Below, in pieces: positions 57,792 through 60,167 of a stretch of DNA of 64,000 nt. Source of the stretch: Komagataeibacter xylinus (GTDB lineage Bacteria; Pseudomonadota; Alphaproteobacteria; Acetobacterales; Acetobacteraceae); assembly GCF_031081985.1 (NCBI RefSeq), contig NZ_JARWSK010000003.1:372001-436000 (forward strand), in the 5' to 3' direction. The stretch's first letter is position 1. Every line of letters starts with the position of its first letter. Made by a program: the position numbers and the translations under genes. The notes below the pieces were generated by a model. That model made no database searches. It saw nothing but the letters and a program-made list of their open reading frames with translations, and was not told where the DNA came from.

Positions 57792-58646
57792 ATGGCCATT
57801 CCCGTCCGTCGCACCGGCGTGCTGTGCGCCCTGCTCATGCTGGCAGGGTGCGGCTTTTCCCCGATGTACAAGACGACGGGAAGCCATATCGGCCCGGATG
57901 GCAGGCCCACCTCCGGCAATGTGCTGGCCGAGCTCAAGCAGGTCTATGTCGCGCGCATCAACGAGCGTTATGGCCAGTTGCTGCGCCAGGCCCTGCAACA
58001 GGACATGGGCGGCGCCGGGCCGGAAAACCCGACCCGTTACGTGCTGCGCATCCGCACCTACCTGATGAACGAGGCCGTGGACATCCACGCCGACAACACA
58101 TCGGGCCGCACCCGCACCACGGCCTTTGCCCACTGGACGCTGGAAACCATGGACAGCGACCCGGAGATGCTGGCCGGGGGCGATGCCTCGGTGGTGGATG
58201 GCGTGAACAACAATTACGAGCAGTATTTCGCCCAGACCCTGAACCTTGAAGGCGTGCGCGCCCGCGTGGCCAAGAACCTGGGCGATCAGGTCACGCAGCA
58301 GGTGGCAGCATGGTTCCGCACCCATGCCAAGCCCGCCATCAGCGGCTCGGTGCGGGGGCAGAACCAGCCGCGCTACACCGATCCCAACAGCATCATCAAC
58401 CCCAATAACCAGATGCCTGCCCAGCAACCCGGCGCCGACGGCATGCCCACCATGGCCACCGGCCGCACCGATGCCCAGCTCAACGCGGAAAACAATGGCG
58501 GCCTGATGACCCCCGATGAAAACGGCCCCATGGACAATACGCCCGACACCACGACACAGGCCCCTGCAAGCACCCGTCGGGGCACGTCCGCGCTCGAGAA
58601 CGATGACATGTCGGGCATCAGCATCGGGGGCAACGAGAACCGGTGA
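57792..58646 (+). CDS. lptE: LPS assembly lipoprotein LptE
   Basis: The lipoprotein plugs LptD in the outer membrane and helps insert lipopolysaccharide. The 284 residues begin with a lipoprotein signal ending LAGC (Cys20) followed by GFSPMYK, the typical LptE start. The core (about 25-180) is a two-layer sandwich, with VYVARINERYGQLLRQAL and TRYVLRIRTYLMNEAVDIHADN. The last 100 residues are a disordered Asn/Pro/Thr-rich tail, longer than usual for LptE. It sits between leuS and holA, the standard alphaproteobacterial order. Confidence 0.9.
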   Translation: MAIPVRRTGVLCALLMLAGCGFSPMYKTTGSHIGPDGRPTSGNVLAELKQVYVARINERYGQLLRQALQQDMGGAGPENPTRYVLRIRTYLMNEAVDIHADNTSGRTRTTAFAHWTLETMDSDPEMLAGGDASVVDGVNNNYEQYFAQTLNLEGVRARVAKNLGDQVTQQVAAWFRTHAKPAISGSVRGQNQPRYTDPNSIINPNNQMPAQQPGADGMPTMATGRTDAQLNAENNGGLMTPDENGPMDNTPDTTTQAPASTRRGTSALENDDMSGISIGGNENR

Positions 58647-59662
58647 AGATCGACGCCCGCTCCGTCAACGCGACCCTGAATGCGCCCGGCGCGCTGCGGG
58701 CCATCGTGCTGCATGGAGATGATGCCGGGCTGATCCGCGAACGGGCCACGATAGCCGCACGGGCCATCTGCCCCGACCTCAACGACCCGTTTCGCGTGGC
58801 CATTCTGGGCCGCGAGGATCATGACCGGCTGGAGGAGGAAAGCACCGCCCTGTCACTGACCGGCGGGCGGCGCGTGATCTGGCTGCGCGAAGTGGGTGAC
58901 AGCGTGCTGGCCGCCGTACAGCGCTGCCTGGCGCAGGAGTCGGACACGCTGGTCATCCTTGAGGCGCCTGGCCTGGCCTCACGCTCGAAACTGCGCGCCT
59001 TTGCCGAAAAGGACCGCCACTGTGGCGTCATCGGCTGCTACCCCGAGGAAGGCCGCGCGCTTGAAGGCGCAATCCGGCACATGCTGGCGGGGCATAAGGT
59101 GGACATTGACCCCGATGCGCTGGGCTGGATGGTTGAACGCGCGGGGCCTGATCGTGCCGCCACCCGCAGCGAGGTGGAAAAACTGGCCCTGTTTGCCGGT
59201 ACCGGCGGCAGGCTGGGGCTGGAGGATGTGCGCGCCTGCGTGGGTGATGCGGCGGGCGTGTCGCTGGAGGATGCGGCGTTTGCCGCCATGGCGGGCGAGC
59301 GCGAAACCGCCGATGCCGCCGCCGAACGCGCGCTGGTGACCGATGGCAGCAGCCCGGTGGCGCTGGCACGCGTGCTGCTGGGCCATATTCACCGCCTGCG
59401 CCGGGTGCGACTGGCCATGGATGGCGGGATGGGCCGGGCGGAGGCCATGCGGCAGTTACGCCCGCCGGTATTCTTCAAGCGCACGGACAGTTTCGGGCAG
59501 GCACTCAATGCCTGGTCGGCGGCCGCCCTGCTGCAGGCGGCACAGGATACGCAGGCGCTGGAACTGGCCTGCAAGCAGACCGGCAGCCCCGATATCGTGC
59601 TGGGGCTGCGGCATGTGGCCCGCCTGTGCGGCCTGGCGCAGAAGGCGCGCAGGCGGCGCTAG
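58643..59662 (+). CDS. holA: DNA polymerase III subunit delta
   Basis: The clamp-loader subunit that opens the beta ring, 339 residues. The start is a GTG whose last two bases form the stop of lptE (GTGA). The AAA+-like domains carry LHGDDAGLIRERA, then LEAPGLASRSKLRAFAEKD, and the C-terminal collar helix region has HIHRLRRVRLAMDGG and LELACKQTGSPDIVLGLRHV. The family lacks a working Walker motif, as here. tRNA-Arg lies 54 bases beyond its stop. Confidence 0.93.
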   Translation: MKIDARSVNATLNAPGALRAIVLHGDDAGLIRERATIAARAICPDLNDPFRVAILGREDHDRLEEESTALSLTGGRRVIWLREVGDSVLAAVQRCLAQESDTLVILEAPGLASRSKLRAFAEKDRHCGVIGCYPEEGRALEGAIRHMLAGHKVDIDPDALGWMVERAGPDRAATRSEVEKLALFAGTGGRLGLEDVRACVGDAAGVSLEDAAFAAMAGERETADAAAERALVTDGSSPVALARVLLGHIHRLRRVRLAMDGGMGRAEAMRQLRPPVFFKRTDSFGQALNAWSAAALLQAAQDTQALELACKQTGSPDIVLGLRHVARLCGLAQKARRRR

Positions 59663-59716
59663 CGGGAAAATTGCCCTTGCCCGCGCGCATGGCCTCGGTT
59701 AGAAAGCTGGCAGTAT

Positions 59717-60016
59717 GTCCGCGTAGCTCAGCCGGATAGAGCACAGGATTCCTGGTTTTCAAATTGGGCGCCATGACGGGAAACCCCATGGCGGATCTGC
59801 TCAAATTCGGGGAACGCTCTGGCGAAAGCCGTGCCAATCCCGAGCCAAGGCCGGTTTATATCGGCAAGGTGTAGAGACTGGATGGGCAGCACCTGTAGAC
59901 CGCATGCGGTCCATGGTGAAGGGACAGTCCAGACCACGAACGCCATGCTCATGGCGGCGGTGAAAGCCGAAGTGGTATGAATCCTGGGGCCGTGGGTTCG
60001 AATCCCGCCGCGGACA
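59717..60016 (+). tRNA. tRNA-Arg(CCU), split by a group I intron
   Basis: Two exons (59717-59753 and 59980-60016) give a 74-base tRNA. The acceptor GTCCGCG pairs with CGCGGAC, the D-arm is GCTC...GAGC, the anticodon stem is CAGGA/TCCTG, and the T-arm is GTGGG/CCCGC with loop TTCGAAT. The discriminator base is A, and CCA is not encoded. The joined anticodon loop is TTCCTAA, so the anticodon is CCT (CCU) and reads AGG. The insertion lies directly after anticodon base 36, the site of the known intron in Agrobacterium tRNA-Arg(CCU). The gene lies downstream of holA. Confidence 0.92.
59754..59979 (+). ncRNA. Group I intron (IC3-like) in tRNA-Arg
   Basis: A 226-base self-splicing-type intron with no ORF. 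The core follows the Azoarcus tRNA-Ile pattern: P2 stem (59769-59775/59787-59793); P4 strands AATTCGGGG and AATCCCGAG; an L5 GAAA tetraloop in GGCGAAAGCC; P6 GCCG/CGGC; the R segment GTAGAGACTGGATG; and the S segment GGGACAGTCCAGACC. P7 is GACTG/CAGTC (59876-59880 with 59925-59929). The exon ends in T and the intron in G. A guide GGG at 59766-59768 can pair with exon CCT with the usual U-G at the splice site. Splicing in vivo is not shown. Confidence 0.9.
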
Positions 60017-60022
60017 TACCCT

Positions 60023-60047
60023 TTCTTTCAGGCATGACCTGAAAGAA
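60023..60047 (+). terminator. Hairpin downstream of the tRNA
   Basis: A perfect 10-base stem TTCTTTCAGG/CCTGAAAGAA around a 5-base loop, seven bases after the tRNA. No T tract follows directly, so it may be a 3' processing or stability element rather than a classical terminator. Confidence 0.4.
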
Positions 60048-60167
60048 CAGGGAAAAGCTTTTTCAGCCGCCTTTCCCCAAACGCCGCCCCCGCAATTTCC
60101 ACCCTTTCAGACACCGGGCCGCGACAGTGCCGGGCTGATCCGCCTGACGGCACAAGCCCGGATGATA

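Follow-up and report, generated by a model that had tools for sequence, protein, structure and literature searches.

Group I introns are found in the tRNA-Leu(UAA) genes of cyanobacteria and plastids, and Reinhold-Hurek and Shub reportedly described, in 1992, introns in the tRNA-Arg(CCU) of Agrobacterium tumefaciens and the tRNA-Ile of Azoarcus. In Bartonella bacilliformis the tRNA-Arg(CCU) group I intron BbgpI is reported to splice both in vivo and in vitro (PMC7717549). Closer to the organism considered here, one tRNA(Arg) interrupted by a group I intron homologue is recorded for five acetic acid bacteria, Asaia bogorensis, Acetobacter pasteurianus, Gluconobacter oxydans, Komagataeibacter medellinensis and Gluconacetobacter diazotrophicus (PMC4596401, Table 1 footnote c). 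These belong to the same family as our source organism, Komagataeibacter xylinus, and K. medellinensis to the same genus; the footnote itself gives neither anticodon nor position, and no difference from the intron considered here was found. In light of that footnote, the intron described below is a correct finding but one already known in kind and in genus.

We analysed a window of 64,000 nucleotides, the whole stretch of DNA under study; positions count from its first base and lie on the plus strand unless stated. With introns allowed, ARAGORN returned a full tRNA-Arg(cct) cloverleaf with an insert between U36 and A37 (ttcct-intron-aatcc). The 5' exon (59717..59753) covers tRNA positions 1-36 and ends with the anticodon CCU, and the 3' exon (59980..60016) covers positions 37-73 and has no encoded CCA. 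Between them lies the group I intron (59754..59979), 226 nt long with a terminal G and recognised by RF00028, ARAGORN and covariation. An earlier note on this DNA had given the same coordinates, exon borders and insert length, which are exact to the base, and the exons joined after anticodon base 36 do form the complete cloverleaf that it described. The core segments that it listed can all be found in the intron, namely P (AAATTCGGGGAAC), Q (CCAATCCCGAGCC), R (GTGTAGAGACTG) and S (GAAGGGACAGTCC), together with the P7 pair GACTG/CAGTC, the terminal U of exon 1 and the terminal G of the intron. At 226 nt the intron is too short to encode a homing endonuclease, which the note had said it lacks. 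Among ORFs of 90 aa or more, only one overlaps the intron (59505-59837, minus strand); it crosses exon 1 and reaches into holA.

The 3' end of the tRNA (window 60016-60019) reads ACATAC and lacks an encoded CCA. Its absence is shared by 6 of 19 genus genomes, the source included, and ACACCA is present in 13 of the 19; within the source genome, CCA stands at or near the 3' end of 44 of 46 other typed tRNAs. Directly 3' of the tRNA is a long hairpin (window 60019-60052) without the T run that the terminator scan demands, and promoter and terminator scans around the split gene found none.

The intron was compared with the Rfam group I covariance model, a check that the earlier note had proposed and whose failure it would have counted against its reading. 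A permissive scan of 521 nt gave a significant RF00028 match of 44.9 bits (E 2.7e-10, 59748-59957, model positions 1-253; E 4.3e-10 at whole-genome scale), though this is 5.1 bits under the curated gathering score of 50. A gathering-level Rfam scan of the whole window accordingly returned no match, and default ARAGORN called no tRNA gene in it, so that default scans miss the split gene altogether. Related introns behave alike: RF00028 matches occur in 84 of 299 genomes of the family Acetobacteraceae, with a match above the cut-off in 17 of those 84 and none over it in 67, which makes the Rfam miss a matter of threshold. The figure of 84 is a lower bound for carriers, given five unreported ones (G012 and the genomes behind L161, L162, L188 and L189). 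Invisible to the default tRNA finder and to the Rfam cut-off, such tRNAs are easily counted as missing. The split tRNA gene of B. bacilliformis likewise had not been annotated (PMC7717549).

To describe the fold, we drew structure P1 to P9b by hand for the source intron and counted its pairs on 40 homologues. These were 40 of 44 non-redundant family Arg(CCU) introns, each aligned with six exon bases on either side; four of 236-314 nt (L035, L039, L055 and L118) were left out before the count. Pairing was seen in 96.6% of 2501 cells, against 83.0% in 500 shuffles, and dropped to 31-42% when partners were slid by 1-3 columns. Double changes were present at 38 of 63 pairs and the covariation score was 0.443, compared with 0.175 in shuffles; none of the 500 shuffles scored as high on any of five measures.

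P1 (59751..59768) joins exon CCU (59751-59753) to GGG (59766-59768), the pair at the 5' splice site being the U59753-G59766 wobble. Its C-G, C-G and U-G pairs are kept in 40/40 sequences, as is the terminal G of the intron. P2, supported by covariation and closed by the GAAA loop L2 (59769..59793), has double changes at 5 of 7 outer pairs and is 98.2% paired, and its 40 loops comprise 37 GAAA and 3 CAAA. In P3 (59797..59889; 59797-59802 with 59884-59889) pairing is 100% and double changes affect 3 of 6 pairs. The region of P4, P5, P5a, P6 and P6a spans 59807..59869; P4 (59807-59811 with 59839-59843) and the two P6 pairs are invariant, while P5, P5a and P6a are 100%, 88.3% and 94.9% paired, with double changes in each. 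The P8 hairpin (59890..59918), also identified by covariation, has an outer helix that is 100% paired with double changes at 3 of 4 pairs; its distal part (83.7% paired) and P5a are the weakest helices. Covariation likewise extends to P9 with P9a and P9b (59933..59976), where 12 of 15 pairs show double changes and the P9b loop is GNRA in every sequence (GAAA 38/40, GCAA 2/40).

P7, the guanosine-binding helix (59876..59929; 59876-59880 with 59925-59929), is invariant in 40/40 Arg(CCU) introns. Since P1, P4, P6 and P7 never vary among the 40, they are silent on covariation by themselves. The last P7 pair does vary between tRNA hosts: it is G-C in Arg(CCU) introns and, in the parsed introns of other tRNAs, 21 A-U and 9 G-C. 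This pair is compensated between hosts: of 201 introns, the 184 that could be parsed show no mispair there (17 did not parse). The minimum-energy single-strand fold, which proved uninformative, lies only 2.1 sd below shuffles, with 4 of 100 as low, and differs from the group I fold. RNAalifold, which cannot draw a pseudoknot, recovered most helices, but in place of P1 and P7 it favoured a near-invariant helix between the guide region and the 3' strand of P7.

Together these data indicate that the predicted P3/P7 pseudoknotted core, with P4-P6 and P8, is present. The intron has a short P5 without P5abc, no P7.1/P7.2 and GNRA loops in L2 and L9. A small tRNA-type core of this build is usual in the subgroup IC3, or Azoarcus-type, architecture, and by resemblance the intron would belong to this subgroup. 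Archaeal and eukaryotic tRNA introns also use the site next to the anticodon, and in position the insert could pass for a non-ribozyme intron of the bulge-helix-bulge type, removed by a protein endonuclease. The group I core, P7 and covariation all speak against such an intron, and that endonuclease is not known from bacteria; the probability of this explanation is practically negligible.

In established group I chemistry the guide holds the exon in P1, a guanosine in P7 attacks, and the exon then attacks after the terminal G. Sequence, fold, conservation and kinship were computed here, and it is from this chemistry that we infer the splicing reaction itself. The sequence elements that this calls for are in place. 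P1 would arise by pairing of exon CCU with the internal guide AAUUGGG, which puts a U-G pair at the 5' splice site. A free guanosine held in P7 would attack after U36, and exon U36 would then attack after the terminal intron G. P10 can form between AAU in the 3' exon and the guide's AUU. The joined exons would give an intact cloverleaf reading AGG codons.

The source genome (16 contigs, completeness 100) has 47 RF00005 matches, all of which were fetched and 46 of which were typed by ARAGORN; no second CCU-anticodon gene is among the typed 46. The remaining match, L107 (G000:C9:312732-312842), is tRNA-like at 39.3 bits with no ARAGORN type, and no CCU was seen when its anticodon region was read by eye. 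Another intact tRNA-Arg(CCU) gene, which the earlier note had named, in company with an unspliced precursor only, as evidence that would count against its reading, was thus not found among the 47 matches, although with the genome in 16 contigs a second CCU gene may sit in a gap. ARAGORN does identify one tRNA-Arg(UCU) gene, which could read AGG by wobble, so that the CCU tRNA need not be essential. Given this possible dispensability, the intron might be an inert relic that no longer splices, leaving the split gene a pseudogene and AGG to the wobble of tRNA-Arg(UCU). A relic would drift in both exons and helices, however, and the 74 exon bases are identical in 19/19 genus genomes, while the helices are kept by compensatory changes. 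We regard a relic as highly improbable.

The whole 300-nt gene is present in all 19 genus genomes searched, at 91-100% identity, and in each of them it adjoins a holA homologue. In the window this upstream neighbour is a holA-like ORF (58643..59662), probably encoding the DNA polymerase III delta subunit. To place the intron among its relatives, we built a tree from 76 listed introns, the source intron and 13 introns of other tRNAs, with bootstrap values that are not fully settled. The 77 Arg(CCU) introns, 19 from Bartonella included, form one clade against the 13 others (100/99). The source intron groups with Komagataeibacter (100/93), and its next relatives are Swaminathania (98/71) and then Gluconacetobacter (95/87, 97/80), taxonomic neighbours in the family. 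The 19 Bartonella introns likewise form a clade (98/94). Deeper branches mix orders, requiring 11 changes for four orders across many weak forks; this mixing may reflect either transfer or weak signal. In a second tree the 75 family Arg(CCU) introns stay together (95/95) after four long non-Arg(CCU) rows (L193, L031, L201 and L046) were dropped; with these kept, a single Leu(UAA) row, L193, on a branch of 5.07, was placed within the Arg(CCU) group. For the second tree no intron was obtained from L343 and L344, and the duplicate L339 was removed. These groupings argue that the intron is related by common descent to the known alphaproteobacterial tRNA-Arg(CCU) introns.

The 84 family genomes hold 87 RF00028 matches, 62 of them in tRNA-Arg(CCU), 24 in other tRNAs and 1 left unassigned; 5 of the 87 were read via loci of the genus-wide search for the 300-nt gene. 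The other hosts are Leu(UAA) (11), Arg(UCU) (4), Thr(GGU) (3), Leu(CAA) (3), Asn(GUU) (1), Lys(UUU) (1) and one unsure Leu(UAG) (L146). Several non-Arg(CCU) borders were set by hand, rather than by ARAGORN, and checked by re-joining the exons. For Arg(CCU), all 76 family rows cut at the 36/37 border re-join to an Arg(cct) cloverleaf. Of 30 loci that were read in other genera, 20 have an unsplit tRNA-Arg(CCU), the empty site, and 10 a split gene; these 30 were the tool's choice from a pattern search and not a random draw. The unsplit-gene pattern itself was found in 180 of 299 family genomes, which is no count of intronless genes since introns beginning with AA also match it.

Beyond the family, RF00028 matches occur in 31 of 385 genomes of a class sample. 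Of 26 class loci outside the family 23 were resolved, as Leu(UAA) (15), Lys (5), Thr (2) and Leu(CAA) (1), with no Arg(CCU); four class matches without a locus were left out of this host reading, and the host counts leave out L051, L190, L192 and L213. Searching named genomes for the Arg(CCU) exon plus guide pattern gave at least 118 stretches. Among the 80 listed, the 3' exon is in place in 76, and L220, L233, L255 and L278 did not parse; the 76 come from Hyphomicrobiales, Rhodobacterales, Rhodospirillales and Acetobacterales, with 4 lacking a rank.

Related introns were also noted in 13 loci of the family Acetobacteraceae (L031, L046, L115, L116, L121, L126, L130, L131, L146, L150, L151, L152 and L159), with tRNA-Asn(GUU), Leu(CAA), Lys(UUU), Thr(GGU) and Arg(UCU) as hosts. 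In Leu(CAA) there are two insertion sites as placed by hand, and exon 1 of L121 and L151 has a terminal C in place of U.

This distribution bears on how the intron reached K. xylinus. A recent horizontal arrival in the species or genus would suit its patchiness in the family (at least 84 of 299 genomes with RF00028, 20 of the 30 loci read unsplit) and the 11 changes that the intron tree needs for four orders, and Paquin (1999) is said to have claimed horizontal transmission. Against it, the intron lies beside holA in 19/19 genus genomes and groups first with its genus and then with family relatives, bearing in mind the partly settled bootstrap. For the genus, an arrival of this kind appears largely refuted by these data, and we judge it very unlikely. 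With the window gene as query, a search for a phage source found 4 phage records and a plasmid search 1272 records, none of either with 80% of the query; at that sensitivity these plasmids carry no copy of the Arg(CCU) gene.

Vertical inheritance within the genus is, on the basis of the sequences compared, well supported. The earlier note had offered either vertical inheritance or movement by another route. The first stands inside the genus, on the 19/19 genomes, the holA context and the tree, and deeper down the orders intermix; the survey of related genomes that it had suggested finds the intron throughout the genus and patchily beyond it. Its identification of a group I intron of the alphaproteobacterial tRNA-Arg(CCU) type in an acetic acid bacterium is borne out by RF00028, fold and clade. 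The note's further inference from the intact exons, that the intron is still active, may hold; activity itself is on record for the Bartonella member (PMC7717549). We put at about 96% the probability that this is a small self-splicing group I intron in the only CCU gene found, inherited with that gene inside the genus.

A related split gene is carried by the plasmid pCTX-M3 (NC_004464.2), where a tRNA-Leu(UAA) with both exons present (L335:3925-4223) is interrupted by a related group I intron (RF00028, 36.8 bits). In the ARAGORN output it appears as Stop(tta), and its identity as Leu(UAA) depends on a border, U34/A35, read by hand. It sits between small ORFs and an AAA ATPase plus aac(3)-IId, and other copies of this resistance-plasmid gene were found at L336:3968-4264 and L349:5001-5299. 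Matches to at least 80% of it occur in 1257 of the 72,556 plasmid records; among 5,426 complete E. coli genomes 624 have one, and of the 670 places concerned 589 are plasmid-borne and 81 chromosomal. No annotation covers the split gene at any of the ten E. coli matches that were listed, nor in the region of the RefSeq record that was read. The plasmid intron groups with alphaproteobacterial Leu(UAA) introns (93/96), and in the class sample the most similar gene reaches 86% identity. The AAA ATPase beside it is presumably what is called tmrB in print, and a narrow literature search found no paper naming both tmrB and a group I intron. Two further mobile elements carry split tRNA genes. On the Bradyrhizobium plasmid NZ_CP094522.1, typed as conjugative, a group I intron lies in a tRNA-Leu(UAA) (L337:2945-3234) near trb transfer genes. 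In Gordonia phage Daredevil (NC_048021.1) a tRNA-Lys(UUU) (L338:1838-2149), in an unannotated gap after the integrase gene, is split by a group I intron-like insert for which there was no RF00028 match at E 0.01.

A broader but doubtful reading is that of a radiating ribozyme family which might owe its spread between lineages mainly to plasmids and phages that carry whole split tRNA genes, and not to homing or reverse splicing. In this reading one of these genes would have become common in Klebsiella and E. coli, where most copies are plasmid-borne. Its hosts would, equally tentatively, include at least the Arg(CCU), Leu(UAA), Leu(CAA), Arg(UCU), Thr(GGU), Asn(GUU) and Lys tRNAs of alphaproteobacteria. 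With one ribozyme type, several hosts, and presence or absence in sister genera, the intron and its relatives form a natural series for asking how introns that lack an endonuclease persist and move.

Compared with the known systems, the source intron shares its ribozyme core and short build with the tRNA-Leu(UAA) introns, which differ in being inserted after U34 and in falling outside the Arg(CCU) clade in both trees once the long rows are set aside. The Agrobacterium and Azoarcus introns resemble it in being small, lying in a tRNA anticodon loop and having no ORF, the Azoarcus intron sitting in another tRNA, tRNA-Ile. For BbgpI splicing is reported from experiment (PMC7717549), whereas the source intron is known here from its sequence. 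The tree, which does not include B. bacilliformis, puts the introns of other Bartonella species into one clade with the source intron, and BbgpI shares with the latter both the host gene and the CCT border.
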